Shown in pieces: positions 3,745 through 19,326 of a stretch of 19,583 nucleotides of DNA; position 1 is the first letter of the stretch; the number at the start of each line of letters is the position of its first letter. The stretch spans positions 1-19,583 of the forward strand of contig WAMJ01000097.1 in assembly GCA_015522385.1 (NCBI GenBank). Direction: 5' to 3'. The position numbers were made by a program, and so were the translations under genes. The notes under the pieces are model-generated. The model did not search any database and was not told where the DNA came from. It worked only from the letters and a program-made list of their open reading frames with translations. Source of the DNA: Candidatus Heimdallarchaeota archaeon. Its GTDB lineage: Archaea > Asgardarchaeota > Heimdallarchaeia > Heimdallarchaeales > Kariarchaeaceae.

Positions 3745-3765
3745 TGACGCGTATCAATTCAACAA

Positions 3766-3773
3766 TTTATAAT
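3766..3773 (+). promoter_or_regulatory. TATA box for the lysine aminotransferase gene
   Basis: TTTATAAT is centred about 27 nt before the ATG at 3796. It overlaps the upstream ATG at 3772, so that ATG would lie inside the promoter. This favours 3796 as the true start of a leaderless mRNA. Confidence 0.55.
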
Positions 3774-3795
3774 GATTCAAGTCTTACGGTATTCT

Positions 3796-5109
3796 ATGAG
3801 CGAGTTAAGACAAATAGAATTGGACAGCCTCCGTAAGCACATCCTTGTTGACGGCTTTGACATGATCTTGGATCTGGAAAGGAGCAAAGGATCCAACTTC
3901 ATTGACAAGAGGACTGGGGATAAATACCTTGATATGGCTAGCTTTTTCGCCTCCATGCCATTCGGTCTTAATCACCCACTCTTTGATAATCCTGAGGTGA
4001 AGAAGGATCTACACCTCGCAGCTACAAATAAAGTGGCAAACAGTGATTTTTACACGGAGCAGATGATTGAATTTGTCGACACTTTCGCAAATGTAGCAGT
4101 CCCTAAGCAGTTCAAGCACATGTTCTTCATTGAAGGAGGAGCGCTTGCAGTTGAGAACGCTCTCAAGGCATCCTTTGACTGGAAGGTGAGGAAGAATCTT
4201 GCAGCTGGAAAGGGTGAATTGGGCTCACAGATCATTCATTTCAAACAAGCGTTCCACGGTAGATCTGGTTATACACTTTCACTAACCAATACCTCTGATC
4301 CCCGCAAGTACATGTACTTCCCCAAATTCGACTGGCCCCGAATCACCCCTCCCACTATTGTCCATCCACTCGCAGACAATATTGAGGAAGTCAAGAGAAG
4401 GGAGGAAGAGAGTCTCATGCAGATCGAACAGGCAATAGCTGAGCGATCCGATGACATCGCTGGCCTGATCATCGAGCCCGTCCAAGCAGAAGGCGGTGAT
4501 AACCACTTCAGACCAGAGTTCTTCAAGGAGATCAGAAGACTAACTCTGGAGAATGATATAATGCTCATCTATGACGAGGTTCAGACCGGGATGGGATTGA
4601 CTGGAAAGATGTGGTATTCCGAGTACCTACCAGATGCACAGCCGGATGTTTTCAGCTTTGGGAAGAAGTCACAGGTATGTGGGATCGTTGCGACAGACCG
4701 TTTCGACGAGGTGGAGAAGAATGTGTTTGAGGAATCAAGCAGGATAAACTCCACATGGGGTGGAAATATTGTAGATATGGTCAGATCCAAGTACTATCTC
4801 GAAATCTACCAGAAGGAAAACATTTTGGATAACGTCAATAAGCAGGGAGAACATCTTATGAAAAGGTTGTACGAGCTCCAAGAGAATTCTGAGGTATCAA
4901 ATGTGAGAGGAGTTGGACTGATGGCAGCCTTCGATCTCCCAACCACCGACAAGAGGGATAGGTTGAGGAACGAGCTTTTCAAGAATAAGCTTATCATGCT
5001 CGCTTGTGGAGACCAGTCCATCAGGTTTAGGCCTGCTTTGAATATCACTGCAGACGAACTCGACCAAGCCTTCGATATTATCACCAAATCAATGTCAGTT
5101 TTGCGCTAA
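3796..5109 (+). CDS. lat: L-lysine 6-transaminase (class III PLP aminotransferase)
   Basis: The protein matches the lysine 6-aminotransferase family (mycobacterial Rv3290c type) throughout, judged from memory. It shares FDMILDLERS, FFIEGGALAVENALKA, AFHGRSGYTLSLTNT, EPVQAEGGD, DEVQTG, FSFGKKSQVCG, NSTWGG and IRFRP. Counted from the alternative ATG at 3772, the PLP Lys is K298 (FGKK). The other likely substrate or cofactor residues are R164, E240, T328 and R420. The enzyme moves the epsilon-amino group of lysine to 2-oxoglutarate, giving 2-aminoadipate 6-semialdehyde, which cyclises to piperideine-6-carboxylate. The chosen start is MSELRQIE at 3796, because the TATA box covers the ATG at 3772; the longer form would add 8 residues. 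In bacteria the enzyme serves lysine breakdown, persistence, or beta-lactam precursor supply. A T8 tract follows 11 nt after the stop. Its link to the polyketide synthase is unknown. Confidence 0.93.
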   Translation: MSELRQIELDSLRKHILVDGFDMILDLERSKGSNFIDKRTGDKYLDMASFFASMPFGLNHPLFDNPEVKKDLHLAATNKVANSDFYTEQMIEFVDTFANVAVPKQFKHMFFIEGGALAVENALKASFDWKVRKNLAAGKGELGSQIIHFKQAFHGRSGYTLSLTNTSDPRKYMYFPKFDWPRITPPTIVHPLADNIEEVKRREEESLMQIEQAIAERSDDIAGLIIEPVQAEGGDNHFRPEFFKEIRRLTLENDIMLIYDEVQTGMGLTGKMWYSEYLPDAQPDVFSFGKKSQVCGIVATDRFDEVEKNVFEESSRINSTWGGNIVDMVRSKYYLEIYQKENILDNVNKQGEHLMKRLYELQENSEVSNVRGVGLMAAFDLPTTDKRDRLRNELFKNKLIMLACGDQSIRFRPALNITADELDQAFDIITKSMSVLR

Positions 5110-5261: not shown

Positions 5262-5525
5262 ATGCGTGCAAAATCACCATTACCTCCTCAGTCTTTACAG
5301 GTACTAGAATATCTTCGGAACATGGGGTCGAGGACTCAGAGAGAGATTATAGAGGAACTTAATCTCCCTACCCGAACTGTCAGGTACTCAATCAGGCGAC
5401 TATTGGAAAAAGACTTCATAGTAAAACAACCCAATCTGAATGACATGAGGAGCGTGTACTACGCAGTAAGTCCTGATTTAACAAACTTTGATGAAATTGT
5501 AAAGAAGGAATTTGCTCACGTTTAA
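5262..5525 (+). CDS. Small MarR/ArsR-like winged-helix transcriptional regulator
   Basis: From the ATG at 5262 this encodes 87 residues, essentially a single winged helix-turn-helix. It has helix LQVLEYLRN, helix REIIEELNL, the recognition helix PTRTVRYSIRRLLEKDFI, and a wing around VKQPNLNDMRSVYYAVS. The L-P-T-R-T-V-R-Y and D-M-R-x-x-Y-Y patterns are typical of small archaeal regulators of this type. No metal-binding cysteines and no ligand domain are present. A longer form from the TTG at 5211 would add 17 residues, but that codon lies upstream of the TATA-like box, so it is not preferred. Its stop codon overlaps the stop codon of the convergent megasynthase. Its place beside the synthase and the lysine/acyl-CoA genes makes it a plausible local regulator of either, which is inference. 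Confidence 0.8.
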   Translation: MRAKSPLPPQSLQVLEYLRNMGSRTQREIIEELNLPTRTVRYSIRRLLEKDFIVKQPNLNDMRSVYYAVSPDLTNFDEIVKKEFAHV

Positions 5526-8500
5526 TCCTTGGATTTTGCGAAGCTTAGAACCCACTTTTCAGTTGATTTCACAGTCACTTGCTTGACTCCCAGAGGAGTT
5601 TTTATCTCCAGTCCAGACTCGATGTCTCCTTTGATCTTGGTCTTGAGGAGGTTGTCTCGGAGACCTGTACCATCTGCTTTCAGCGCTGCCTCCTTTGCAG
5701 TCCACATCGCATTGATCACATCAGAGTTGTCTGGGATGATGCCGTACATGTCCTGCTCCTTCTGGGTAAAGGCAGTCTTGATGATAGATTTCTTCCTCTT
5801 GACATTCTTTTCGAGATCAATTCCAAATTGATCTTTGTCCATAGAGACTGCAATGACTATACCATTGGAATGGGTCTTGCTCAAGGGATACTTACTATCT
5901 CCCCAGAGACCGTAAGGTCGTCCTTCCTCGTCCCTGATGATAGTTATGTCGGGCTCACGGATGTTGTGGATAATACCTAGAACAAGCTTGGACGCAATTA
6001 TCCCAGAGAGCCACTCCAGTCTTCTCTTCTTTACCTTTAGCTTGTCCAATCGGAGACGCTCCGACTCCGTGAGGAATTCCTCAAGGAACTCATTGGAAAT
6101 GCCGCCAAACGCGTCTATGGATAACGTTACAGCATTAATACCCAGAGACCCGACAAGGTGCTTCACAGTAGCGATGTCAAGGTCGTAGGTGTGCTTGAAC
6201 CTAAGTTTGTGCTTGACCTTCCCCGTGTGGATCATGCTGAATTCGTGGAGGTCAATGACTATTGATCCTGTCTTGTCCAAGGCCTGTACATGATATATGG
6301 AGTGCCCGTCCTCCTCGCGGAGGAACACCGCGAAGACATACTCTACCGGATTCGAGTTCTTGTAGAGCTTGACCTGTTTGATCCCTGCGGGAAGTGACAT
6401 CCTTTTATTGGTGAGCAGGTCGTACATTCCTGCTGTCTGGAAGCAAGCCTCTATTACTAAAGGATTGATTTTTGTCTTCTCATACTCCACGTCACGAAAT
6501 TGTTCATTCTCTGGGAGAGAATAGCGAGTGCCAACACTGACCTTACCTAGTGCCAAGACCTCTGAGAGAACTTGGAACTTCGGTCCATGAAAGAATATCT
6601 CGTAGATCTTCTCCTTAGAGATGAGGGGCTCTTCAGGTGCAAACCACTGCAGTTGATCACTGTCGAGTACCGGAAAGGTTCTGACCATTGCCTTGTCCAC
6701 CAACTCTGCAGAGAAATGCTCCCTGAGATCACCTAGTTGTTTACCATCTGGTCCAATAAATTTGGACTTGACGTCGAAATGCAGGGACAGTGAGGACACA
6801 CTCGCAGAGGTGATAGCGCTGATCTCTAAGGGTTTGTCCCGAGGGAGTTTGATCGGGGACTTGAACTCTATGTTCCTGAACTCAGTGATCGAGCCACCGA
6901 GAATAGCTCCAGTTTCTGCCATGAATTCCAAGCCCATAACTCCTGGAAGTACTGCCTTCCCATCAATCCTATGGTGGTCAAGATATAGGTCGCGCTGAAG
7001 TGAGATGACCCTCCTTGCAGTGATGTTGTCTGCGGTCTTGAAGACGCAGTCAATCATGGGGAATTCTTCCAATTCCTCTTCTGACTTTAGCTGCGTGCTA
7101 CCTTCATCAGCTTTTGCGACCAGTGAGCTCAAGTCCTCAGATTCGGTCTCCTCAGATGCAGTCTCTTCGGAATCAGTCTCCTTGGATTCAGTCTCCTTGG
7201 ATTTCGTTTCTTCCTGCTCAGTCTTTACTTCCCCGATCTCTTCCCCCGACTTCTCATCATCAGATGGATCTTTGTCGATAAATCTGACCTTGCTGGCCAA
7301 ACCTCCAAGCTCACCACTGACGACGACCTCTGGCTCTGCACCGTATCCAAACTCTTCGACGAAGTGCTGTACTCCCTCATCAAATGGGATAGGGGTCACA
7401 CCTAGGGCAGAGAGGACCTTAAGCGTAGAACCACGGGTGGCCATTCCAACCCCCTCCCAAGCAGACCAGTCGATCACCGAGGCGACTGTCGTCTCACTGT
7501 TAAGCTGGGCAAGCCTCTTGGCGAGATACTCATTGGCTGCAGAGTAATCCGCTTGGGTGGCGTTCCCGAATCTTCCCGCCACAGAGCTAAACGCCATGAT
7601 TCTCTTGATCTTGGACAGGTCAACTCCTTGGAGAATGTTCTCAAAACCATCCATCTTGATGCCATAGACCATATCGAACTCCTCGACGCTCTTCTTCTTG
7701 GTCGGTTTTGAGATCTCAACTCCCGCCCCGTGGATGATGTAGTGCACCTCTCCGAATTCGTCCACGATCTCCGAAACTGCCTGTTTCATCCTATCTGCAT
7801 CCCTGACGTCAACTGATTTGTACACGACTTTCGCTCCCATACTTTCCAGCTCCTTGATGGCGCTGAAGACTGCTGCAGACTTTGTGTACTTTGACCACTC
7901 TTTCTCCAGCATAACGGGTGTTACTCGTTCGTTGTTCTCCTTGAGCTCGTCAAGAAGTTTCTGCTTCCTCTCTTTGAGGGCTTTCTCATCCAATGATGAG
8001 ATCTCGGGTGCGTCATCTCTGATCTCAGTTCGTCCGAGGAGAGCAACATTAACTCCTGTAGATACTATCTCCTTAAGGCAGGCGAAGGTGATGCCCTGAG
8101 CTCCACCAGAGACTATAATGGAACTGTTCTCTGGGAGTTTGAATTCCCTGAACTCGGGATCAACCTCCAAGAGTGACACAATCTTACGTATATTGCCATC
8201 AAGTATGACCTCCTGTCCAAGAGCGTTCTTAATCTCCCGAAGTTCCATCTCCTTTGTAGCTTTAGAGCTCACGATGATCTTTGAGCTAATATTGTTGAAC
8301 TCGGCATCTAGTGCCTTGAACAGTCCTCCAAGAGCACCTTGGTATCCACTCATCGAGTGGAGACTTGCCTTCTCGGTGTGTATGAGAAGTACAAGCCTTA
8401 TTTCCTTGTCTACATGTTCCTTGAGAACCTTGTAATACTCAGGGATTGACCCTGACTTTTCGGTTGGATCGATAATGACGAGATCGCCACCATCATAAGC

Positions 8501-11500
8501 GTTAATGCCAGAGATTGTATTCCCCAACTCTTCGAGCTCACCGATAACGACAGGATCATTGAGTTCTATCCCTTTGTAATCGTCCGACGGGACGTACCGG
8601 ATGAGGTACTTGTGAGACTTGGCACTACCGTCTTCCCTAATTGCCAATTGTTCGGCAAGTTTGTCAAGAGTAGGTTCAGGTTTGAAGTCTGACGGAACTG
8701 ATAGTCCAAAGTGCTTAGCAGTCTCCGAGATTATGTGCTCATACTGCTGATCTGTGGCGCCCAGATCTACTTTCACATCTGTGGTAGGTGCGATTAGACT
8801 GTCAGGATACCCAGTAAGCGCAGAGGTCTTAGCTATCAGAACATCAAGTATCTCCTTGCTCCGATTCTCATCCACACTCTTCACAGGTTCAGGAGTGGAC
8901 TGCTTCTCAGAGCTAGACATCGAACCAGCGTAGGAAAGGACAAAATCAACCATCTTGTTTATAGTTGAAACATCTCCTAAATCGAGATTCTCGTCAAATG
9001 GTATGCTGTATTCCTCACGGATCAGACCTATAATCTCTGCCTGCTTGACGGTGTCTACACCGAGGTCTGCTTCTAAGTCCAAATCGAGGTCAAGCATCTC
9101 TGGAGGGTAGCCTGTCTCGGAGGCGATAACAGATACAACCTTTTCCAGAATTGCACCTCTATCCTCGGAGCTTACCTTGGGTATGGTCTTGGTCGTCTCT
9201 TCGATTCTGGCTGTTGTAGTTACTTTTTCCGTGAGTGATGAGATGTTGTTCTTGACAAAATCTCCCACTTTTGCAATAGTGTTGTAGTCCGCGAGATCGA
9301 TGTTCTCATCAAACGGAATACCATACATCTCCCTAATCTCTCCAAAGATCTCTGCTTGTTTCACAGTGTCTATCCCGAGATCTGCCTCCATGTCTAGGTC
9401 TGGATCCAGTGTCTCAAGAGCGTAACCTGTTGCCTCAGAGACTACCGAGAGAACTTTGTGCATGATTTCCTCGGGATCAATCTTATTCTCGGAGGTCACC
9501 GAGGTCTGAGTAGATTGCAATGTGGCAGATTGTTCTGCTGTTGTCGGCTGTCCACCCTTACCTGCGTTATCCATGACGAACTGAGCGACCTTTCTGATGG
9601 TGTTATATTCACCCAGATCAAGGTTTTCGTCGAACGGGATGTCGTACTGTTCCCGTACCTCTCCGAAGATCTCCGCTTGCTTGACGGTGTCTATTCCAAG
9701 ATCAGCCTCCATGTCAAGATCAGGATCTAGGGTCTCTAGGGGATACCCCGACTGCTCGGCGATGGTGTCCAAAACCTTCTTGAGTACTTCGTCTGCATCG
9801 AGTGAGGATGTCGTTGGTGAAGAGCTTGTCGGAGTTTCGGTCACTGGTTGAGCAGATCCGGTCGTTCCTGAGGTATTGTCCTTCACGAACTGCTCTATCT
9901 TTCTAATCGTATTGTACTCACCCAAATCAAGGTTCTCGTCGAATGGAATACCATAAGATTCCCTGATATCACCGAAGATTTCCGCCTGCTTGACAGTGTC
10001 AATACCGAGATCTGCCTCTAGATCCATGTCAACATCCAATGTCTCCTTTGGATATCCAGTGCTCTCCGCAATTCTGTCAAGGATGTCCTCGAGTAGGTTC
10101 CCTTGACGTGCTTTGGGTGCAGATACTCGGGCAGGTGTAGATTTGCTCGGTTTGGTACTCTTCTTTCCTCCTGAGGACAAGCTGACCGTTCCTGTGGCTA
10201 TGCTGTTTAATTCACCCACTGTGAGGTCCTCCTTGTACTGGGAACTCTTGTTACCTAGGATCTCCTTCACATCGTGTTCTGATAGTCCAAGGTCATTCTT
10301 CAGTGACAGATTGTCCATCAACATCGATTCGGGATAGCCCGTCTTCTGCGACAGTACCTGCATGACCGAGCCGGAGTATGTGACAACCGATGGAGTAGGT
10401 CTCGCCTTCTCCTTTACTGGCTTAGCTACGGATCTCGTTGACTGGGCCACTGCAATCTTAGGTGGGATTCCATTATCCTTCAGTCTCAAGGTCTTACCGA
10501 CATTGACGAGCTGTTCTACAGAACCACCAATGGATTTTAACCACTCGTTGTACTTGGTCGATTTCCTCTCACCAGTGCTTGCCTTTCTGTAGAGGGCAAA
10601 GGCGAGTTGTGAACCGAATCCCGCAGCAATCCTGAATGCGTAGTCCAGAGGGATTTTCTCACCCTTGGAAAGTCTGAGATTGCCGAGACTCTCATCGGGC
10701 TCTTGGAAGTTAGCAATTGGAGGAACAACTCCTAGCTCTAGAGCCTTAATTGCTATAGCATCCTCGATCCCCGCGCCCATTGGGTGGCCTGTGAAACCCT
10801 TGGTGTTGGCAACTACAATCTTGTCAGCATCCTCTCCGAAGGTTTCCCGAATGGAGTTTATCTCAGCTGCAGCAGATCCACCCCTTGCGGGAGTGTATGT
10901 TTCGTGGCTCATGAACATGCACGATTTGGCGATATCGCTGGTCGTCAAACCGGTTTGCTTGGCGACGATATTCATGAACTTCTTCATCTCAGCTGTAATA
11001 TGTGCGACGTCCAGACGTGTACCGTGGAATGCTGAGTTTGCATAGTGGGTTCCAATGATCTCGACAATGGGCGCGACACCTCTTCTCCGGGCCTCGGATC
11101 GGGTCTCGATGACAAGTCCAACAGCCCCCATTCCAACGATCATCCCGTTCCTTCTCCGGTCGAATGGTAGAGCAGCTTTCTTAATATCACCCTCTGTCGT
11201 AGCTGCTCCCGAGATAAGAAATCCTGATCCTATCCACTCAAAGAGGTTCTCACCTGAGACGTTGTCCGCAGAAATGATGATGACCCTCTCACATCTTCCA
11301 TTCCTGATCCAGTCTTCAGCAATTCCTACGGCTTGGGTCGTGGACGCACAGGCAGCGTTTGTCTGTGTATTCGGACCGTATGCCTTTATCAACTGTGCAA
11401 ATTGGGAGTGACCCATGGACAGGATCCTGAACAGGAACTTCCTGTTGAACTCAAAGACTGAACGGTGCTTCTCCAGATCCTCCAATTCCGCATCAAGAAA

Positions 11501-14500
11501 ATCAAGAAGAGGGTTCTCTGAACCCTTCTTTCTCTCTCGACGGGATACCTCTCCGTATACCTTTCGTATGACATCAATGGCATTCTCCGCGTACTTGTTC
11601 TGGTAGAAGTGGGAAATGTCTTCTACCAAGCTGTCAAAACCGGGGAATGCAGATGCAAATATGACTCCGGTATTCTCTTGGAGATCTGGGGGAAGTACCC
11701 AGTCACCCGGAAGGTAGCCACCCGTGGTGGTCTTGTTGTACTGCCTGACGAGTGGGATACCTGCGTCCTTCAGAGCCTCCAGACCTGCTGCAATGGCCAA
11801 TTTTGTCGTGATATCGTAAGCTCCGACCATCTTCTCTGCTATCTGGTACTCCTTGACAAGATCAAATGTGCCGGGCTGACCTGCAAGTTTTATGACATTG
11901 TCTCTAGAATCGATCTTCAGGAATGACCCACCACCTGATTTGGACTTAACCAAACGGTTGATGTTCTTGTCTGTTTGCTGAAGCTCTTTGGCCTCACCCA
12001 CGGGATCGATCAGGTTATCTCCCCGGAGGATTCTTCTGATGTTCTCGGGATCAAATATCTCCTTGTTCTTCCCCGGCAGTCCAACTCCAGTTCCCGTAAC
12101 GACAATCTTGTCAAGATTTATTCCATACTTATCCAGTAAGCTACTCTCGCTTCCATGTCCTGCGTAATTCATCTTGAACTTCTCAAAGGACTCTCGAACA
12201 AATGATGAGAATGCCTGACCTTGGAACTTCATGAACTCCTCAAAGAGAGGGTCAGAGTGTATATCCTTATCAATCATCGGAGTGATGTCCACGGTAGACT
12301 CTGTTGATCTCACTGCAATAGGTGCTGATACGGGTTGAGGATCTGCCCTGATCCTAACTGGAACTCTCGTCTTCTCAATCTTAGGTTTGATCTTGAAAGC
12401 TTCGTCCTCACGAGCATCTGTAAGGTCATAACCGAGTGCTATTAAGGCTGCAAGACTCTCACAAAAGTGGTAGATACCACCTTTCTTTGGATGATTGGTG
12501 ACCACAGAGACGATTTCCTTGTCGTCGAGTATCTCTGCTACGAATGATGCCAGAGCCCTCTTCGGTCCGACTTCAAAGAAGAGTCGTGCACCTGCGTTGT
12601 ACATTGATTCCGTCTGTGCTGTCCACTCCACTGGAGACTCAACCTGCTTTTCAAGTAACTCCCGTATCTTCTCAGGATCTTCGGGATAGAAGTCTCCAAG
12701 CACATTCGAGGATACTGGAATTTTCGGTCTGGAGAAAGTGATGGTTCTGAGGTACTCTGCAAGGGTCTCAGCTGCTGGTGCCACGATTTTGGTGTGGAAT
12801 GCAGCGGATACATTCAGCTTTATTGCTTTAATTTTCTTCTCGGTGAAGACCTTAATTGCTTCCTGAACCCCCTCCGTTGAACCCGAGATCACTACTCGCT
12901 TTGTACTATTCTTGTTCGCAGCGATTGCATATCCCTCGACCTCTTCCTCGAGGATCTTGACCACCTCATCGAGGCTTCCAGAGATCGAGGCCATTGTGCC
13001 CTTGTCGTCAGCGTCGACATCAGACATTGCCTTCCCTCTTATAGCCACTGCCATCAGTGCATCGGGGAAACTCAGGACTTCTGCTGCGACTAGAGCTGCG
13101 TACTCCCCGAGTGAGTGACCGGCGACCATGTCTGGTTCAACACCAAATTCCTTGAACAGCCTGAACAGGGCTATGTCTGCGGTCAGCATGGCGGGTTGGG
13201 TGTACTGGGTCTGCTTGAGGACTTCCTCTGCTTTCTTTGTGTCTCCCTTAGAGAATACAAGGGAGCTGAGTTTCTTCCCGAGAAACTCTTCGAGAACCTC
13301 GTCTGCCTCGTCAAATGTCTCCTTGACGACAGGATACCTACTCGCTAGGTCTGCGAGCATATTTACATACTGGGAACCCTGACCAGGGAAGAGAAATGCC
13401 AACTTACCAGTGGGTATGCCCTCGGAGTAGAATATCCCCCTTGCCCTTGCACCTTTCCGAATTGATTCTTTGTCAATCACCGAGGAGGCGAACTCGAGGT
13501 TCTTCTTCAGCGCCTCGACGTTTGTTGCTGCGAATGAAAGGACAAGGCTTTCCGAGTTCGGTGTGCTAATTTTCTCCCGGACTTCAGCCAATGTCATCGC
13601 AGCGGGATCCTCTGTGAGGTCCTTGCTCGGAACTTTGGAGATTGCTGTTTTTATTTGATCTTTAAGTTGGTTGGAGTCCGATGAGCTAAATGTGAATACT
13701 TCTCCTAAGCTCTTACCGTATTTCTCCATGTATGTGTTGTAGTCCAGTGCTTCGACAATCTTCCTATCTGGAAAATAGTTAAAGTTGGGGTTGTACTCCT
13801 CCATGATCAGGTGGAAGTTTGTACCGCCAAATCCAAAAGCAGAAACTCCGGCCTTCCTTGTCTTGGAGGAGTCGTGATCCCACGGTTTTGCCTGTGTGTT
13901 TACGTAGAAAGGTGAATTGTCCCAGTCGATCTTAGGGTTGGGAACTTTGAAATTGATCGATGGAGGGAGAGTCTTATTGTAGAGTGACAGAGCCACTTTG
14001 AGAACCGCGGCAGAACCAGCAGCGCTCTTGAGATGACCGATCTGGCTCTTGATAGAACCTAGAGCGATTGAACGCTTTTCAAGATTGGCCTCACTGAAGA
14101 CCTTCTGCAGGGTAGCGACCTCAACGACGTCACCGACAGCTGTGGAGGTTCCGTGTGCCTCGATGAGAGAAATGTCCTCGGGAGTGACCCCTGCATTGGT
14201 CAAAGCTCTGCGAATAGCCAGTTCCTGACCAATTGGGTTAGGTGCGGTAATACCCTTCCCCTTACCGTCTGAGGACGATCCAACACCCCTGATTATTGCG
14301 TAGATGGTATCACCGTCCCTTATTGCATCCTCCAATCTCTTCATGAGGAAGAATCCCACTCCCTCTCCCATGATAAAACCATTGGCATCCTTATCAAACG
14401 GTCGGGAACCATCTGGTGAGAGTGCTCCAATTTTGCAGAACTTCACGAAAGAAGAGATCTCATTACTGCGATCTGCTCCACCGCAGAGCACAGCATCCAC

Positions 14501-15235
14501 CTCCCCAGAGACTAGCGACTTGTACGCTTGATCCACTGCTGCAATAGAAGATGCACACGCTGCATCAGTGGTCATGTTCTTCCCACGTAAGTTGAAGACA
14601 TTTGCTACTCTTCCAGCGATTACATTTGCCAGCTCTCCAGGCATGGAGTCCTCGGTGATCTCAGTTAGGGGTTTTAGGTACTTCTCCTTTAGGTGAATAA
14701 GCATTGACTGCTGGGATTTGGAATCGAGCTGCTTGAATTCTTCGGTGCTCTTCAAGGACTGTTCTACCTCTGGAAAGTACACTCTTCTTGTGTACTGTCT
14801 TACAATTTCTCCACCCATGGAGTTACCCAGTATTACAGCTGTATTTTCATTGTTAATATTAGCACCTTCCAATGCCTGTCTTGCAGCTTCAAGTGCCATT
14901 TGCTGCACAGGATCGATCTGTTTGGCAACCTTTGGAGGAATTCTGAATTTTACACTGTTGAATTCAAAGTCTGTGATCCAAGAACCAATTTTAGAGTACG
15001 TTTTATCAGGTGCATTTCTGTCCTCATCGTAGTAGAGCTCAGGGTCCCACCGTTCCTTTGGAACCTCACGTATGGAGTCTCTCCCGGTTCGAACATTCTC
15101 CCAGAATTCCTCGATATTATTCGCGTCCGGCATGACCGCACCCAATCCGATTATCGCAACCGGATCACCTGGGTAAGTGACGCGAGTTTGAGAGAATTTA
15201 ATTTTGGTCTTTTGTTTCTTAGAATTAGATGTCAT
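5522..15235 (-). CDS. Giant iterative-type polyketide/PUFA-like synthase: KS-AT-KS-ACP array-KR-DH-PPTase
   Basis: One uninterrupted frame of 3237 residues. Domain order by residue: KS1 22-480, AT 610-935, KS2 1042-1552, a degenerate ACP 1622-1685, four ACP repeats 1712-2104, a degenerate ACP 2126-2200, KR 2205-2650, an acidic repeat linker 2676-2700, a double-hotdog DH 2725-3005, and PPTase 3055-3237. Such synthases extend a thioester-bound chain with malonyl units, reduce the keto group and dehydrate it. The order KS-AT-ACP-KR-DH-PPTase is that of enediyne PKSE enzymes and is close to PfaA/PfaC PUFA synthases; the extra KS2 and the ACP multiplication differ. There is no enoyl reductase and no thioesterase, so an unsaturated or hydroxylated product, released by another protein, is expected. 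All four good ACPs have Thr at the pantetheine-serine position. The ATG at 15235 is preceded by AGGTGA. The nearby carboxylase genes probably supply malonyl-CoA. The product is unknown. Confidence 0.93.
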   Translation of the reverse strand: MTSNSKKQKTKIKFSQTRVTYPGDPVAIIGLGAVMPDANNIEEFWENVRTGRDSIREVPKERWDPELYYDEDRNAPDKTYSKIGSWITDFEFNSVKFRIPPKVAKQIDPVQQMALEAARQALEGANINNENTAVILGNSMGGEIVRQYTRRVYFPEVEQSLKSTEEFKQLDSKSQQSMLIHLKEKYLKPLTEITEDSMPGELANVIAGRVANVFNLRGKNMTTDAACASSIAAVDQAYKSLVSGEVDAVLCGGADRSNEISSFVKFCKIGALSPDGSRPFDKDANGFIMGEGVGFFLMKRLEDAIRDGDTIYAIIRGVGSSSDGKGKGITAPNPIGQELAIRRALTNAGVTPEDISLIEAHGTSTAVGDVVEVATLQKVFSEANLEKRSIALGSIKSQIGHLKSAAGSAAVLKVALSLYNKTLPPSINFKVPNPKIDWDNSPFYVNTQAKPWDHDSSKTRKAGVSAFGFGGTNFHLIMEEYNPNFNYFPDRKIVEALDYNTYMEKYGKSLGEVFTFSSSDSNQLKDQIKTAISKVPSKDLTEDPAAMTLAEVREKISTPNSESLVLSFAATNVEALKKNLEFASSVIDKESIRKGARARGIFYSEGIPTGKLAFLFPGQGSQYVNMLADLASRYPVVKETFDEADEVLEEFLGKKLSSLVFSKGDTKKAEEVLKQTQYTQPAMLTADIALFRLFKEFGVEPDMVAGHSLGEYAALVAAEVLSFPDALMAVAIRGKAMSDVDADDKGTMASISGSLDEVVKILEEEVEGYAIAANKNSTKRVVISGSTEGVQEAIKVFTEKKIKAIKLNVSAAFHTKIVAPAAETLAEYLRTITFSRPKIPVSSNVLGDFYPEDPEKIRELLEKQVESPVEWTAQTESMYNAGARLFFEVGPKRALASFVAEILDDKEIVSVVTNHPKKGGIYHFCESLAALIALGYDLTDAREDEAFKIKPKIEKTRVPVRIRADPQPVSAPIAVRSTESTVDITPMIDKDIHSDPLFEEFMKFQGQAFSSFVRESFEKFKMNYAGHGSESSLLDKYGINLDKIVVTGTGVGLPGKNKEIFDPENIRRILRGDNLIDPVGEAKELQQTDKNINRLVKSKSGGGSFLKIDSRDNVIKLAGQPGTFDLVKEYQIAEKMVGAYDITTKLAIAAGLEALKDAGIPLVRQYNKTTTGGYLPGDWVLPPDLQENTGVIFASAFPGFDSLVEDISHFYQNKYAENAIDVIRKVYGEVSRRERKKGSENPLLDFLDAELEDLEKHRSVFEFNRKFLFRILSMGHSQFAQLIKAYGPNTQTNAACASTTQAVGIAEDWIRNGRCERVIIISADNVSGENLFEWIGSGFLISGAATTEGDIKKAALPFDRRRNGMIVGMGAVGLVIETRSEARRRGVAPIVEIIGTHYANSAFHGTRLDVAHITAEMKKFMNIVAKQTGLTTSDIAKSCMFMSHETYTPARGGSAAAEINSIRETFGEDADKIVVANTKGFTGHPMGAGIEDAIAIKALELGVVPPIANFQEPDESLGNLRLSKGEKIPLDYAFRIAAGFGSQLAFALYRKASTGERKSTKYNEWLKSIGGSVEQLVNVGKTLRLKDNGIPPKIAVAQSTRSVAKPVKEKARPTPSVVTYSGSVMQVLSQKTGYPESMLMDNLSLKNDLGLSEHDVKEILGNKSSQYKEDLTVGELNSIATGTVSLSSGGKKSTKPSKSTPARVSAPKARQGNLLEDILDRIAESTGYPKETLDVDMDLEADLGIDTVKQAEIFGDIRESYGIPFDENLDLGEYNTIRKIEQFVKDNTSGTTGSAQPVTETPTSSSPTTSSLDADEVLKKVLDTIAEQSGYPLETLDPDLDMEADLGIDTVKQAEIFGEVREQYDIPFDENLDLGEYNTIRKVAQFVMDNAGKGGQPTTAEQSATLQSTQTSVTSENKIDPEEIMHKVLSVVSEATGYALETLDPDLDMEADLGIDTVKQAEIFGEIREMYGIPFDENIDLADYNTIAKVGDFVKNNISSLTEKVTTTARIEETTKTIPKVSSEDRGAILEKVVSVIASETGYPPEMLDLDLDLEADLGVDTVKQAEIIGLIREEYSIPFDENLDLGDVSTINKMVDFVLSYAGSMSSSEKQSTPEPVKSVDENRSKEILDVLIAKTSALTGYPDSLIAPTTDVKVDLGATDQQYEHIISETAKHFGLSVPSDFKPEPTLDKLAEQLAIREDGSAKSHKYLIRYVPSDDYKGIELNDPVVIGELEELGNTISGINAYDGGDLVIIDPTEKSGSIPEYYKVLKEHVDKEIRLVLLIHTEKASLHSMSGYQGALGGLFKALDAEFNNISSKIIVSSKATKEMELREIKNALGQEVILDGNIRKIVSLLEVDPEFREFKLPENSSIIVSGGAQGITFACLKEIVSTGVNVALLGRTEIRDDAPEISSLDEKALKERKQKLLDELKENNERVTPVMLEKEWSKYTKSAAVFSAIKELESMGAKVVYKSVDVRDADRMKQAVSEIVDEFGEVHYIIHGAGVEISKPTKKKSVEEFDMVYGIKMDGFENILQGVDLSKIKRIMAFSSVAGRFGNATQADYSAANEYLAKRLAQLNSETTVASVIDWSAWEGVGMATRGSTLKVLSALGVTPIPFDEGVQHFVEEFGYGAEPEVVVSGELGGLASKVRFIDKDPSDDEKSGEEIGEVKTEQEETKSKETESKETDSEETASEETESEDLSSLVAKADEGSTQLKSEEELEEFPMIDCVFKTADNITARRVISLQRDLYLDHHRIDGKAVLPGVMGLEFMAETGAILGGSITEFRNIEFKSPIKLPRDKPLEISAITSASVSSLSLHFDVKSKFIGPDGKQLGDLREHFSAELVDKAMVRTFPVLDSDQLQWFAPEEPLISKEKIYEIFFHGPKFQVLSEVLALGKVSVGTRYSLPENEQFRDVEYEKTKINPLVIEACFQTAGMYDLLTNKRMSLPAGIKQVKLYKNSNPVEYVFAVFLREEDGHSIYHVQALDKTGSIVIDLHEFSMIHTGKVKHKLRFKHTYDLDIATVKHLVGSLGINAVTLSIDAFGGISNEFLEEFLTESERLRLDKLKVKKRRLEWLSGIIASKLVLGIIHNIREPDITIIRDEEGRPYGLWGDSKYPLSKTHSNGIVIAVSMDKDQFGIDLEKNVKRKKSIIKTAFTQKEQDMYGIIPDNSDVINAMWTAKEAALKADGTGLRDNLLKTKIKGDIESGLEIKTPLGVKQVTVKSTEKWVLSFAKSKD
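5525..6073 (-). other. C-terminal phosphopantetheinyl transferase domain (Sfp type)
   Basis: Residues 3055-3237 carry EWLSGIIASK (3074-3083), H3122 near LSKTHSNG, the magnesium-binding FGIDLE (D3140, E3142) and MWTAKEAALKADG (K3181, E3182, K3186). This is the complete motif set of an Sfp-type transferase, which moves 4'-phosphopantetheine from CoA to carrier domains. Fusion to the synthase suggests self-activation, as in enediyne PKSE proteins. Confidence 0.85.
6221..7063 (-). other. Dehydratase domain (double hotdog)
   Basis: Residues 2725-3005. The first hotdog has the H-x3-G-x4-P motif (H2755, G2759, P2764) within HRIDGKAVLPG. In the second hotdog the usual catalytic Asp is Glu (E2929 in NPLVIEACFQ). 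It should remove water from the beta-hydroxyacyl chain, though the Glu is unusual. Confidence 0.75.
7133..7210 (-). repeat. Short acidic pentapeptide repeat in the KR-DH linker
   Basis: Residues 2676-2701 repeat S-[KE]-E-T-x about five times with a 15-base period, ending SEETESED. It is a charged, probably extended spacer between domains and may vary in copy number between strains. Confidence 0.7.
7286..8623 (-). other. Ketoreductase domain (KR) of PfaA type
   Basis: Residues 2205-2650 comprise a structural half followed by a catalytic half. The NADPH loop is GGAQGIT (2377-2383). K2527, S2551, Y2564 (ADYSAAN) and N2568 form the catalytic set. A long insert after LLGRTE (about 2404-2455) is also seen in PfaA-type reductases. 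It should reduce the beta-keto group to a hydroxyl. Confidence 0.88.
8636..8860 (-). other. Degenerate acyl-carrier-like domain downstream of the ACP array
   Basis: Residues 2126-2200 retain TGYP and V-DLG but read A-T-D-Q-Q after it. D2162 is at the attachment position and T2161 one residue earlier. It is probably a structural remnant. Confidence 0.5.
8924..10102 (-). repeat. Four tandem acyl-carrier-protein repeats with Thr at the attachment site
   Basis: The units lie at 9872-10102, 9560-9793, 9242-9472 and 8924-9160. Each has TGYP or SGYP, then L-[DE]-ADLG-[IV]-DTVKQAEI, then [GDS]IPFDEN-[LI]-DL. They are joined by Ser/Thr/Pro/Gln-rich linkers. The residue at the pantetheine-serine position is T1747 (ACT), T1850 (ACC), T1957 (ACT) and T2062 (ACC). 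Thr to Thr spacing is 103, 107 and 105 residues. Tandem ACP arrays are a hallmark of PUFA synthases, whose motif reads D-S-I-K. Confidence 0.9.
10181..10372 (-). other. Degenerate acyl-carrier-like domain upstream of the ACP array
   Basis: Residues 1622-1685 keep the KTGYP start and the DLG turn of the four good repeats. However, L-S-E-H replaces I-D-T-V, putting E1653 where the attachment residue should be. S1652 is one residue out of register. Carrier function is doubtful. Confidence 0.5.
10580..12112 (-). other. Second, divergent ketosynthase domain (KS2)
   Basis: Residues 1042-1552. The thiolase fold is recognisable from IVVTGTGVGLPG, C1296 in TNAACASTT, and H1484 in KGFTGHPMGAG. The usual E-A-H-G-T-x-T is replaced by MSHETYTPARGG, with H1444 in the histidine position. 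Because Cys and both His are present, it is not a decarboxylating chain-length factor of the PfaC type. It may be a second condensing or transacylating domain. Confidence 0.75.
12431..13408 (-). other. Acyltransferase domain (AT), malonyl-type
   Basis: Residues 610-935. It begins with FPGQGSQY. The nucleophile S708 lies in GHSLGEYAA and H814 in SAAFHT. The x-A-F-H pattern is that of malonyl-specific acyltransferases rather than the Y-A-S-H of methylmalonyl enzymes, which fits the carboxylase encoded next door. Confidence 0.88.
13796..15172 (-). other. Ketosynthase domain 1 (KS1) of the megasynthase
   Basis: Residues 22-480. The catalytic triad of condensing enzymes is intact: C227 in DAACASS, H361 in EAHGTST and H401 in SQIGHLKSAAG. 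The end motif FGFGGTNFH is also present. The sequence is of the PfaA/PKS type, so this domain should perform decarboxylative condensation. Confidence 0.92.
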
Positions 15236-15534: not shown

Positions 15535-17130
15535 TTAGAGCGGCATGTTCCCGTGCTTTCTCTTCATACGAGTCTCTCGTTTGCTCAGAAGAGGCCATAG
15601 ACTTTCAATAAGCTTTGGTCGTGTTTCCGATGGAAGAATCACCGCATCCACATAACCCAGACTCGCTGCTTCGTACGGATTGTAGAATTGATCCTTATAC
15701 TCCTTCTCGATCTTTAGTCTCTCCTCCTCTGGATTGTCCGAATTCAATAAATCCCTCCTGAAGATGACATTGACCGCGGCTTCAGAACCCATGACTGCAA
15801 TCTCTGCTGTCGGCCACGCAAGGTTGACATCTGTCCTAAGATGCTTAGATGCCATGACGATGTATGCCCCGCCAAAGGCCTTTCTAGTAACGACCGCAAT
15901 CTTGGGGACTGTAGCTTCACAGTACGCATACAACATCTTTGCTCCATTCCTGATGATCCCTCTCCATTCCTCGTCTTTGCCAGGTAGGAACCCGGGAACA
16001 TCAACGAAGGTAATTATCGGTATGTTGAATGCATCACAGAATCTGATGAACTTGGAACCCTTGATCGAGGCCTCGGAATCCAAAGCCCCAGCAAGAACTG
16101 TTGGTTGGTTTGCCACGATCCCTACGGGGTAGCCATTCAATCTTCCGAATCCTACGATTATATTTCGAGCCCACTTCTCCTGAACTTCAAAGAAGTCCCT
16201 ATGATCTAAAATCTCGCGGATAATACCTTTCATATCATACGCCTGTTTGGAGTCATCTGGGATTATAGTATTAAGGAAATCAGACATCCTGGCCTTGTCA
16301 TCCGTGGGATCGATGCTCGGTGGGTACTCAAGGTTATTGGAGGGGATAAAGCTCAAGATCCTCCGGATTATATTGATCGAGTCCTTCTCGTCTTCTCCCT
16401 CAAAATGAGCAACTCCTGACTTATAGGAGTGAATGGAAGCCCCTCCGAGATCCTCGAAAGAGATGTCCTCACCCGTCACTGTTTTGACCACACTAGGACC
16501 TGTTACGAACATGTGGGATGTGTCCTTGGTCATAATGATGAAATCGGTAAGAGCAGGAGAGTACACTGCACCACCTGCTGACGGACCCATAATTACACTG
16601 ATCTGCGGGATGACACCGGATGCGTTCACATTCCTGAAGAAAATCTCTCCGTATCCTGCCAATGCCGCTACACCTTCCTGAATCCTTGCCCCACCTGAGT
16701 CGTTGAACCCAATAATCGGCGCTCCATTCTTCAATGCTTGATCCATGATGTGAGCGATCTTCATTGCATGGGCGTTACCGAGGGAGCCTCCGATAACTGT
16801 GAAGTCCTGCGAGTAGACGTATACCAGTCTCCCATTTACTCTTCCGTATCCGGTGATCACTCCATCACCGAGGAATTTCTTCTTCTCCATCCCGAAATTT
16901 GTGCTCTGGTGTGTGACAAATTGTCCTGTTTCTACGAAGGTCTCTGGATCAAGAAACAGAAGTATCCTCTCACGAGCTGTGTACTTACCCTTGGCATGTT
17001 GAGCTTCGATTCGTTTCTCCCCTCCACCCAGCTGTGCCTTCTTCTCCAGCTCGATAAATCTCTGTATTTTCTCTTTTGTAGGGATGTCCAATACATTCAC
17101 TTTCGGATTACTCTCTTGATTGGGAGACAT
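15535..17130 (-). CDS. Acyl-CoA carboxylase carboxyltransferase (beta) subunit, PccB family
   Basis: This 531-residue protein is full length for the PccB/AccD family. It moves the carboxyl group from carboxybiotin to an acyl-CoA. The N-terminal half has ARERILLFLD, GGSLGNAHAMKI, FNDSGGARIQEG and the oxyanion segment MGPSAGGAVYSPA. The C-terminal half has VDVPGFLPG, GIIRNGAK, KAFGGAYIVM and LAWPTAEIAVMG. At the known substrate-control position (Asp422 in Streptomyces PccB, within GGAYDVM) this protein has I424. From published work on Streptomyces carboxylases, Ile there goes with acceptance of acetyl-CoA, so malonyl-CoA is a likely product. The segment before GIIR reads KDEEWR, unlike the usual QE-Y-GG. 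There is no ribosome site before the ATG at 17130, but a TATA-like A-rich box lies about 27 nt upstream. It forms one set with the two genes upstream. Confidence 0.95.
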   Translation of the reverse strand: MSPNQESNPKVNVLDIPTKEKIQRFIELEKKAQLGGGEKRIEAQHAKGKYTARERILLFLDPETFVETGQFVTHQSTNFGMEKKKFLGDGVITGYGRVNGRLVYVYSQDFTVIGGSLGNAHAMKIAHIMDQALKNGAPIIGFNDSGGARIQEGVAALAGYGEIFFRNVNASGVIPQISVIMGPSAGGAVYSPALTDFIIMTKDTSHMFVTGPSVVKTVTGEDISFEDLGGASIHSYKSGVAHFEGEDEKDSINIIRRILSFIPSNNLEYPPSIDPTDDKARMSDFLNTIIPDDSKQAYDMKGIIREILDHRDFFEVQEKWARNIIVGFGRLNGYPVGIVANQPTVLAGALDSEASIKGSKFIRFCDAFNIPIITFVDVPGFLPGKDEEWRGIIRNGAKMLYAYCEATVPKIAVVTRKAFGGAYIVMASKHLRTDVNLAWPTAEIAVMGSEAAVNVIFRRDLLNSDNPEEERLKIEKEYKDQFYNPYEAASLGYVDAVILPSETRPKLIESLWPLLSKRETRMKRKHGNMPL

Positions 17131-17200: not shown

Positions 17201-17785
17201 TTACTCGTCTTTCTTCTCTTTCTCTATCTCTACGAGTGGTAAATTGTTTTCTACCTGATCTTGGAGATTGACATGCACCTTCTTGACTACGCCTCCCATC
17301 TCTGTAATGAGTTCATTCTGCATTTTCATCGCCTCAAGAGTGATGACCTTCGATCCTGAATCTACCGTATCTCCCACTTGGACATGAACGCCCACAATCA
17401 CACCCGGTAGTGGAGCTCTGATTACCTCCTTCCCTGAGCTACTTCCTGATGAACGTTTCAGATCGGGCACTGCGGGAGTATATGTGAACTCAACCATCCT
17501 ACCGTCAAGGAATATCTGTCCTTCAGATGGATCAATGTGATACACGTGGCCTGCGACCTCGACGACTTGAAGCCCACCTGCATTGGTCTGGATCTTCGGC
17601 TTGAAAAGAAGACCGTCAATGATGATCTCTCCTGTCTTCTCGTTGTGGAAGAGTGAAGCTCTCCTTCCTGCAAACAGGATATCGTACTCCTTGAATTTCG
17701 AGGTATCGATTTTCTGGCTTGTCTTTCCAATGACCTTCTTGGCCTTCTCCTGAGCTTTCATTGACTTTGAAATATCCACTGACAT
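17201..17785 (-). CDS. Biotin carboxyl carrier protein of acyl-CoA carboxylase
   Basis: From the ATG at 17785 this encodes 194 residues. The C-terminal biotinyl domain (about 122-188) begins RAPLPGVI and carries the biotin lysine K154 in LEAMKMQNEL, 40 residues from the end as usual. Residues 35-105 form a beta-rich N-terminal domain (KEYDILFAGRRAS to GRMVEFTY) of the kind that binds the rest of the carboxylase. A Ser/Gly-rich hinge (112-118) links the two. A GTG at 17794 is in frame and would add three residues, but it overlaps the likely ribosome site AGGTGG (17794-17799), so ATG 17785 is preferred. Only two bases separate it from the biotin carboxylase stop, so the two genes are translationally coupled. 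Biotin would be added by a ligase encoded elsewhere. Confidence 0.93.
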   Translation of the reverse strand: MSVDISKSMKAQEKAKKVIGKTSQKIDTSKFKEYDILFAGRRASLFHNEKTGEIIIDGLLFKPKIQTNAGGLQVVEVAGHVYHIDPSEGQIFLDGRMVEFTYTPAVPDLKRSSGSSSGKEVIRAPLPGVIVGVHVQVGDTVDSGSKVITLEAMKMQNELITEMGGVVKKVHVNLQDQVENNLPLVEIEKEKKDE

Positions 17786-17787
17786 CC

Positions 17788-19263
17788 TTACCACCTACCT
17801 GTAGACTCCTTAAGAGCCTCGTTCATCCATCCTCGCTCAAGCCGCTCCGGAAGGAAGACCTTCTTTGTCACCTGCTGGCTAGCGAAGAGTGCTGCGGCCC
17901 TCCTCGCGAATGCCACCTTGATGTATGGAACTATGTTATTCTCTTCCACGAACCTCGTGGTTATATTTCCTCTGTGGAAGTTCTTGTTGGCCAGCACCAC
18001 TCTGTGGAATGGAAGATTCGTTGGTAGACTAGAGATAGATAACTCTGTAAGGGCCAGATACGCCCTCCTAATCGCCTGCTTCCGGTCTTCGCCCCAGATG
18101 ATAAGTTTACCGAGAAGTGAGTCATACTCCCTCGGGATCTTGTAGCCTGAGTATAGATGAGAGTCGAACCTTACTCCCGGACCCCCAGGAATCTGAAGTT
18201 TATCGACAGAGCCAACTGTGGGACTGAAATCGTAGAGTGGATCCTCGCTGTTGATCCTGAGCTCAATGGCATGTCCGTGGAACTCAATCTTCTTTTGGCT
18301 CCATGAGAGTCTCTTACCATCTGCAATCTTCAACTGCTCGACAACAAGATCCCTTCCAGTGATAGCTTCCGTCACCGGGTGCTCAACTTGCAGTCGAGTA
18401 TTTACCTCATTGAAGTAGAAATTTCCATCCTCGAATAGAAATTCTGCAGTTCCGGCATTCTCGTACCCGACCTGCTTAGCAAGCTTCTTCACTGCATTGC
18501 CAATAGTTTCTCTCTCCTCCTCGGTTATCGCTGTCGAGGGTGCTTCCTCAATGAGTTTCTGATGCCTACGCTGGATCGAGCATTCTCTCTCTCCCATATG
18601 GATGACATTTCCCTTGGAGTCCGCGATGAATTGGATCTCTATATGCCGGGGGCGCTCGATGAATTTCTCGATGAAAACCTCACTTCGACCAAAGACTGCT
18701 CCTGCTTGGCGGGATGTTGCCTCGATGGCATCGAGTAGATCCTCCTCTTTGTGAACGACCTTGATCCCCATCCCCCCCCCTCCAAATGATGCCTTGACAA
18801 TAACTGGATAACCTATATCCCTTGCTATTTTTAGGGCATCTTCGTCGGCTTGGACTGGATCTTCGCTACCGGGAGTGGTTGGTACTCCTGCTTTCTCCGC
18901 AATCTTCCTTGATGATAACTTATCTCCCAAGACATTGATAGCCTCCGCAGATGGTCCGACCCACTTGATTCCGCTCTCTGCCACTGCTTTAGCAAATTGT
19001 GGATTCTCGGAGAGGAAGCCATATCCTGGATGAATTGCATCTGTCTCCATATCTTGGGCAATCTCGATGATCTTCGGAATGTTGAGATAATTCTCACTAA
19101 GTGTCCCCCCTCCCAGACTCTTAGAGTGATCAGCCTTGCGGATGTGCAGGCAATCCTTGTCCTGCTCAGCATAGATGGCAACTGTTTCGATTCCTTGAGT
19201 TTTCGCGGCTCGAATCACCCTTAGGGCTATCTCGCCTCGATTGGCAATAAGCAGTCTTTCCAT
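17788..19263 (-). CDS. Biotin carboxylase subunit of acyl-CoA carboxylase
   Basis: From the ATG at 19263 this encodes 491 residues. It begins with the hallmark RLLIANRGEIALRVIRAAK. It has HPGYGFLSEN (78-87), the ATP glycine loop FGGGGMG (160-166), RECSIQRRHQKLIEE (H234, K236), and FNEVNTRLQVEHPVTE with the Mg/bicarbonate residues E286, N288, R290, Q292, V293 and E294. R336 (ELRINSED) completes the active site. The enzyme uses ATP and bicarbonate to carboxylate biotin on the carrier protein encoded next. The ATG at 19263 has AAGGTGA 5 nt upstream (19269-19275). The 17 residues encoded further upstream are unlike the family start and are left out. A TATA box lies 60-70 nt upstream. A C9 tract (18772-18780) encodes the glycine loop. 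Confidence 0.95.
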   Translation of the reverse strand: MERLLIANRGEIALRVIRAAKTQGIETVAIYAEQDKDCLHIRKADHSKSLGGGTLSENYLNIPKIIEIAQDMETDAIHPGYGFLSENPQFAKAVAESGIKWVGPSAEAINVLGDKLSSRKIAEKAGVPTTPGSEDPVQADEDALKIARDIGYPVIVKASFGGGGMGIKVVHKEEDLLDAIEATSRQAGAVFGRSEVFIEKFIERPRHIEIQFIADSKGNVIHMGERECSIQRRHQKLIEEAPSTAITEEERETIGNAVKKLAKQVGYENAGTAEFLFEDGNFYFNEVNTRLQVEHPVTEAITGRDLVVEQLKIADGKRLSWSQKKIEFHGHAIELRINSEDPLYDFSPTVGSVDKLQIPGGPGVRFDSHLYSGYKIPREYDSLLGKLIIWGEDRKQAIRRAYLALTELSISSLPTNLPFHRVVLANKNFHRGNITTRFVEENNIVPYIKVAFARRAAALFASQQVTKKVFLPERLERGWMNEALKESTGRW

Positions 19264-19268
19264 TATTG

Positions 19269-19275
19269 TCACCTT
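19269..19275 (-). promoter_or_regulatory. Ribosome-binding site deciding the biotin carboxylase start
   Basis: AAGGTGA on the minus strand lies 5 nt before the ATG at 19263. It rules in favour of that codon over the in-frame ATG at 19314. Confidence 0.7.
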
Positions 19276-19326
19276 GGAATCCAGAAGGGAACTTCCGAAT
19301 CTCCTCAGTTTCAACCTGAGTAGAGG

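Follow-up and report, generated by a model that had tools for sequence, protein, structure and literature searches.

Phosphopantetheinylation of acyl carrier proteins (ACPs) is described (for example in PMC3447402 and PMC4103896) as modification of a conserved Ser. The subject of this report is a synthase of 3237 residues whose carrier repeats have Thr at this site. It is encoded in a 19,583-nucleotide stretch of Candidatus Heimdallarchaeota archaeon DNA, contig WAMJ01000097.1 (hereafter the window). Its closest described counterpart is the PfaA-type synthase of polyunsaturated fatty acids (NCBIfam TIGR02813), to which it belongs by score (1130.3 against a cut-off of 1010.1). Both combine ketosynthase (KS), acyltransferase (AT), tandem ACP, ketoreductase (KR) and dehydratase (DH) domains in one chain, and their carriers share E-A-D-L-G-I-D-x-[IV]-K. 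The tandem carriers of PfaA, however, have Ser in the D-S-[IV]-K motif, whereas all four motif-intact repeats of the window read D-T-V-K; the window synthase also has a second KS, KS2, and a phosphopantetheinyl transferase (PPTase) in the same chain, and degenerate carriers flanking the array. Fungal type I fatty acid synthase likewise has a C-terminal PPTase, and its ACP acceptor is Ser; the window synthase differs from it in domain order, in its two-lobed Sfp-like PPTase and in its tandem carriers. With AcpP the window carriers share the helical ACP fold, as modelled, and an acceptor hydroxyl at the N-terminal end of helix II, but in the window it belongs to Thr. Compared with other Sfp-type (group II) PPTases, the enzyme of the window family is fused to, or often encoded beside, a Thr carrier array. 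A search of open-licence papers found no description of Thr carriers, which does not prove their absence from print.

It is highly probable, in our view, that the four repeats are working acyl carriers with 4'-phosphopantetheine on Thr, which would make Thr a natural acceptor. The carrier region is laid out as follows.

10196..10369, minus strand: degenerate carrier-like repeat before the array, LGLSEHDVKEIL, Glu in the acceptor column
9881..10096, minus strand: Thr carrier 1, acceptor codon ACT at 9995-9997
9572..9787, minus strand: Thr carrier 2, acceptor codon ACC at 9686-9688
9251..9466, minus strand: Thr carrier 3, acceptor codon ACT at 9365-9367, structure modelled
8936..9151, minus strand: Thr carrier 4, acceptor codon ACC at 9050-9052
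8666..8863, minus strand: degenerate carrier-like repeat after the array, DLGATDQQYEHI, Asp at the acceptor place, judged by eye

The four codons had been given to the exact base in the initial annotation; both degenerate repeats lie outside the range it covered. All four intact repeats share D-L-G-[IV]-D-T-V-K-Q-A-E, with the acceptor Thr at residues 1747, 1850, 1957 and 2062. They are carrier domains by Pfam PP-binding (PF00550, 112.5 bits against a cut-off of 20.8, in four stretches), and the usual Ser acceptor of that family is replaced by Thr in all four, so that no recognised carrier of the window has Ser at the acceptor site. The predicted structure of carrier 3 has the ACP fold with Thr as the first residue of helix II, i.e., at the Ser site of ACP. 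A Ser in the N-terminal degenerate repeat (LGLSEHD) was considered as the true acceptor and rejected, being one place off and replaced in close relatives. Any two of the four repeats share 0.58-0.69 of their nucleotides and, in codons for identical residues, 0.34-0.50 of their third positions. The repeats are old; their synonymous sites have diverged far while Thr stayed.

A search with the carrier region found 5476 relatives (120 listed). Its query words include the Thr, and it was therefore repeated with KS2 (residues 1060-1560) as a carrier-independent marker of the family, which gave 3751 relatives (120 listed); five proteins are common to the two lists. Carriers were counted with a custom profile and, separately, with a masked motif that leaves the acceptor open and requires the rest. 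By profile, the carrier-anchored set contains 645 domains (637 Thr, 3 Ser, 2 Glu, 1 Pro, 1 Lys and 1 gap), and 113 of the 120 proteins listed have Thr in every carrier found. The KS2-anchored set contains 396 carriers (359 Thr, 17 Ser and 20 others or gaps), with 101 of the 120 listed proteins having only Thr, 16 having Thr with other residues or gaps, and three having no Thr at all, these being all-Ser. By the masked motif there are 359 Thr, 10 Ser and no other residue at 369 sites of the KS2-anchored set, 634 Thr and 3 Ser at 637 sites of the carrier-anchored set, and 188 Thr and 2 Ser at 190 sites in 172 long frames of genome loci. In none of the three sets does a third residue occupy the acceptor of a motif-intact carrier. 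The seven Ser lost under the stricter motif come from P0132 (two) and from P0135, P0124, P0126, P0129 and P0136 (one each), in repeats whose motif is otherwise eroded. Degenerate repeats of relatives show E, D, A, P, K, I, Q, N, L or G, and some Ser. Among 30 short loci of the Asgard phylum, several of them from genomes already present in the earlier sets, 29 have the motif, with 61 Thr and 4 Ser. A search for the carrier array in phages gave no match. Small stand-alone Thr carriers were sought as well; ten of 11 candidates are short proteins, and the seven that were read all have DTVKQAE. They may include both fragments or split frames and genuine proteins, and no family is claimed for them.

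At 193 sites in loci L001-L080 the acceptor codons are ACG (75), ACC (63), ACT (35) and ACA (18), with two AGT Ser codons. The near-exclusive Thr at the 369 intact sites, the use of all four Thr codons and the divergence of synonymous sites support the view that Thr is kept by selection, as the initial annotation had proposed. Its idea of four independent substitutions fails, as Thr is the inherited state of the family. Its mention of D-T-V-K-Q-A-E in bacterial polyketide synthase-like megaproteins proved right. An artefact of sequencing, frame or binning deserves practically no weight: many assemblies, among them strain-titled records (L067, L074, L077) and Nonomuraea, contain the motif, in hundreds of carriers altogether and with every one of the four Thr codons in use, and this recurrence already refutes it.

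Synthases outside the family keep Ser. A plasmid-collection search with the carrier array matched 15 records, of which ten were fetched; seven of these contain 22 motif sites, 21 Ser and one Thr, and the other three contain none. Regions of 18-24 kb around those seven records were examined for the KS2 marker and PPTase. The marker is found only in the region from Nonomuraea gerenzanensis (63.6% identity over 225 residues), the source of the single Thr; in the six Ser control regions KS2 matches stay below 31% identity, and the carrier frame has no HETYTP motif. Control arrays (Persicobacter, Streptomyces, Beijerinckia) read D-S-I-K-R-[VI]-E. With Ser in 21 of 21 carriers of non-family synthases, the contrast drawn in the initial annotation between D-S elsewhere and D-T here stands. 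The Nonomuraea gerenzanensis family member has 2584 residues and one motif-intact carrier, with Thr there; an acyl-CoA dehydrogenase gene lies upstream, and about 5.5 kb past the synthase an open frame encodes PPTase.

Within the family, Thr and Ser have been exchanged. Ser occupies every motif-intact carrier of P0132 and P0135, both with PPTase, and of P0133, and a cut synthase in genome G047 has two Ser carriers. A quick, midpoint-rooted KS2 tree of 56 rows, in which proteins with any motif-intact Ser carrier were coded apart from Thr-only ones, requires at least five changes between the two states and places the all-Ser arrays among Thr arrays; given this rooting, we do not infer the direction of exchange. 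P0133 (Ser) and P0131 (Thr) form a sister pair (SH-aLRT 100); they share 62-65% identity, and a degenerate repeat occupies the same position in both. Relatives with Ser had been named beforehand as the case that would reduce Thr to a local quirk. They do exist, but all-Ser arrays are rare (3 of 120) and nested in the Thr clade, which supports equal function of the two residues rather than a quirk. The all-Ser relatives also bear on the idea that the arm sits on another conserved hydroxyl of the repeat, for which there are two near-invariant candidates, Thr at -26 (TGY; 961 Thr and 11 Ser of 975) and Thr at +32 (946 Thr and 22 Ser of 972). These relatives switch precisely at the Thr of D-T-V-K, canonical ACPs carry the arm where helix II begins, the place at which that Thr is modelled, and no column of conserved Ser or Cys is found in Thr repeats; we consider loading elsewhere very improbable.

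The partner enzyme of the window is located as follows.

5525..6178, minus strand: fused Sfp-type PPTase, with GIDLE at 5810-5824 (metal-binding Asp/Glu), WTAKEA at 5687-5704 (catalytic Glu/Lys) and SKTHSNG at 5861-5881

It matches PF01648 and has a full two-lobed predicted fold. The Asp and Glu of Asp-x-Glu and the Trp, Lys and Glu of W-x-x-K-E are invariant in a 13-row alignment, and the domain is complete, as annotated initially. The genome-contig scan gave 525 relatives, and 80 loci were kept; 41 of them have a closed synthase frame longer than 2200 residues and were surveyed with a profile built from fused domains, the 39 shorter or cut ones being left uncounted. PPTase is fused to the synthase in 19 of the 41 loci and encoded in the flank in 17, 36 together. 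Twelve of the 17 flanking genes overlap the synthase gene or lie within 1 kb, and five are at 2.3-5.7 kb, two of these on the opposite strand. The fused form accounts for all 16 archaeal loci and for three proteobacteria-titled ones (L012, L027, L032); in other bacterial loci PPTase, where seen, is a separate gene. As to the question, raised in the initial annotation, whether D-T-V-K-Q-A-E always goes with this fused PPTase, Thr arrays are mostly accompanied by PPTase but not always in fused form, and the Heimdallarchaeota protein P0131 has no PPTase domain listed. We conclude that a Thr acceptor in functional-looking carriers, usually tied to PPTase, is a real feature of the whole family. A candidate discriminator, AVDVE in P0132 and P0135 against the mostly GIDLE-like motif of Thr relatives, was discarded, since it rests on two proteins and P0130, although a Thr protein, reads TVDLE.

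The mechanism would involve binding of CoA and metal by the C-terminal PPTase of the same chain, abstraction by the Glu of WTAKEA of the hydroxyl proton of the Thr with which helix II begins, and attack of the Thr alkoxide on the β-phosphate of CoA, by analogy with what has been proposed for Ser in the human PPTase. Loaded arms would then move malonyl and growing acyl chains among AT, KS1 and KS2, KR and DH, with malonyl-CoA presumably drawn from the carboxylase encoded by adjacent genes.

In some genomes the Thr array appears to be the only carrier system. Twelve archaeal genomes (G001-G012) were searched with PF00550 at E ≤10 and with PF01648, and nine of them also with TIGR00517 and with PF01648 at E ≤10. 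In eight of the 12, every recognised carrier with Ser or Thr as acceptor belongs to the Thr array, and the fused PPTase is the sole one over the cut-off. Four of the eight (G003, G006, G007, G008) have no further carrier, bar a chance-level TIGR00517 stretch in G007 (E 0.8). In G009 there are two PF00550 stretches at chance level (E 0.42 and 0.56), as well as one PPTase stretch below the cut-off. The other three (G010, G011, G012) have, besides chance-level stretches, an extra small ACP-like protein, with Asn, Glu and Lys at the acceptor place. These ACP-like frames of Heimdallarchaeota/Asgard genomes (L084, L085 and L086) are 87-101 residues long and look like a carrier fold without an arm. 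Among the remaining four, G002 and G004 each encode a small Ser carrier outside the synthase, with PPTase only as the fused domain; in G005 the contig that encodes such a small Ser carrier also encodes a second PPTase; and G001, titled as the complete chromosome of Candidatus Heimdallarchaeum endolithica, shows no carrier outside its synthase apart from one chance-level stretch. In each of five bacterial genomes (G013-G017) there is an AcpP-like Ser carrier elsewhere.

Several observations weigh against Thr loading by a dedicated partner. The proteins P0018, P0024 (Thermoplasmatota) and P0091 have one Ser carrier followed by four or five Thr carriers, and group on the tree with the Thr-only P0067 and P0119; in four other Thr proteins (P0124, P0126, P0129, P0136) a degenerate repeat bears Ser. 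In these seven, one Ser arm could suffice. Eleven of the 12 archaeal genomes are drafts, and the sole complete one, G001, has a Ser-Thr-Ser array, both residues in one protein (L059, 4472-15028). An unseen carrier is possible in any single draft, but unlikely overall across eight of 12 genomes. Five of the 41 surveyed loci lack PPTase in the fetched flank (L022, L031, L044, L051, L077). In L077 a genome search places it on the carrier contig about 7 kb from the synthase, and in L044 it is just past the fetched flank on a same-numbered contig, probably the same one, which leaves L022, L031 and L051 with none located. Two of the six Ser control regions (Beijerinckia, Azospirillum) also have an annotated PPTase gene, so a nearby PPTase gene is not specific to Thr arrays. 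No PPTase residue that marks the use of Thr was found, the enzymes of Thr and Ser arrays looking alike, with only two all-Ser examples that have PPTase. Finally, spinach ACP-I lost function when its Ser38 was changed to Thr or Cys, according to a second-hand statement in the introduction of PMC9310384; Thr is, then, a poor acceptor for at least one ordinary ACP, and if this result is general, an adapted PPTase would be needed.

The mixed arrays, S-TTTT(T) and Ser-Thr-Ser, and the Ser-bearing degenerate repeats would fit a design in which the arm sits only on a Ser-bearing or minor degenerate repeat, with the Thr repeats serving as spacer. We think this quite unlikely, with no recognised carrier in the window having Ser at the site and with Thr in every profile-found carrier of most relatives listed (101 of 120 KS2-anchored, 113 of 120 carrier-anchored). 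The spinach result, together with the small Ser carriers of G002, G004 and G005 and the AcpP-like ones of G013-G017, would be accommodated by Thr repeats that are never loaded and form a scaffold or substrate-docking array, the chain being held on CoA or on a Ser carrier protein acting in trans. Such an array would be expected to lose its hydroxyl, yet this is seen at none of the 369 motif-intact sites, while degenerate repeats vary; eight of 12 archaeal genomes show no Ser carrier and still keep PPTase; and the Nonomuraea gerenzanensis synthase has Thr in its sole motif-intact carrier. Repeats that are never loaded are therefore unlikely as well, and loading on Thr is the reading that we prefer.

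The remaining parts of the synthase and the genes upstream of it are as follows.

5522..15235, minus strand: synthase open reading frame, 3237 residues, KS-AT-KS2-(degenerate carrier)-ACP x4-(degenerate carrier)-KR-DH-PPTase
13784..15166, minus strand: KS1, catalytic Cys motif DAACAS at 14549-14566, His motifs EAHGTST and KSQIGHL
12497..13405, minus strand: AT, GHSLGEY motif at 13100-13120
10556..12058, minus strand: KS2, Cys motif NAACAST, His motifs SHETYTP and KGFTGHP
7454..8122, minus strand: KR, catalytic Ser and Tyr motifs intact
6227..7057, minus strand: double-hotdog DH, motifs HxxxGxxxxP and EACFQ
15535..17130, minus strand: acyl-CoA carboxylase carboxyltransferase, directly upstream of the synthase
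17201..17794, minus strand: biotin carboxyl carrier protein
17788..19314, minus strand: biotin carboxylase

Pfam recognises KS, AT, the four PP-binding stretches, KR, a double-hotdog DH and an ACPS-type PPTase, and active-site motifs were found in all six catalytic domains checked (both KS, AT, KR, DH and PPTase). It finds no enoyl-reductase domain in the synthase, bar short-chain dehydrogenase/reductase models overlapping KR, and no PfaB-, PfaC- or PfaD-like gene among the seven other proteins scanned from the window, which spans only 19.6 kb. In P0139 and P0144 (Asgard group archaeon), P0140 and P0162 (Zixibacteria), each of about 3580 residues, an NMO/PfaD-like domain (PF03060) occurs along with PPTase; these are possibly complete single-chain fatty acid synthases. 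Many bacterial loci (e.g., L014, L016, L050, L065) have an acyl-CoA dehydrogenase gene directly upstream of the Thr synthase, which might act as chain reductase or desaturase. An acyl-CoA dehydrogenase is also encoded in the window, beside a class III aminotransferase; the pair lies at 2605-5109, on the strand opposite to the synthase. A GcvH-like protein with an acidic tail (PF01597, 1558-2115) reads ESIS where ESVK is expected, the place that we take to hold the lipoyl Lys of GcvH.

The nearest KS2 relatives (L001-L003, Candidatus Heimdallarchaeota; 74-78% identity over 225 residues) match the window in their three carboxylase genes and the order of these, including the position of the carboxyltransferase gene, which suggests an Asgard archaeon as the host. 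The loci kept from the scan span Heimdallarchaeota, Thermoplasmata, Chloroflexi, Acidobacteria, Myxococcales, Actinomycetes, Woeseiaceae and others. In the phylum to which G003 belongs, 37 of 227 genomes have the KS2 marker; in two of them (G023, G043) the match falls in a frame of only about 500 residues, possibly a stand-alone ketosynthase or a cut gene. In the phylum of Bellilinea caldifistulae (L067) at least 23 of 400 genomes have it, with up to seven candidates per genome scored. Stand-alone KS2 relatives in frames of about 500-550 residues (G003:C8:519718-520392, G024:C197, G048:C190) occur in genomes that also encode the megasynthase.

Taken across the family, we think it probable that Thr O-phosphopantetheine is natural and widespread. 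A synthase lineage spanning Asgard archaea, Thermoplasmatota, Chloroflexota, Acidobacteriota, Myxococcota, Actinomycetota and others would have switched from Ser to Thr together with a partner PPTase, maybe orthogonal to the Ser-ACP network and maybe the sole carrier system of some Asgard archaea, with whole arrays exchanging Thr and Ser more than once. A large, old family with Thr at the acceptor site breaks the rule of the conserved Ser, and annotation by Ser motifs could miss such carriers or label them inactive. Whole-array differences between close relatives are ready material for comparing Ser and Thr specificity, and orthogonal protein labelling could make use of a natural Thr carrier and its PPTase. 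Through this family, Asgard archaea are also seen to encode a fatty-acid or polyketide-type synthase that includes a PPTase of its own and lies next to acyl-CoA carboxylase genes, which bears on the question of fatty acyl chains in the archaeal relatives of eukaryotes.
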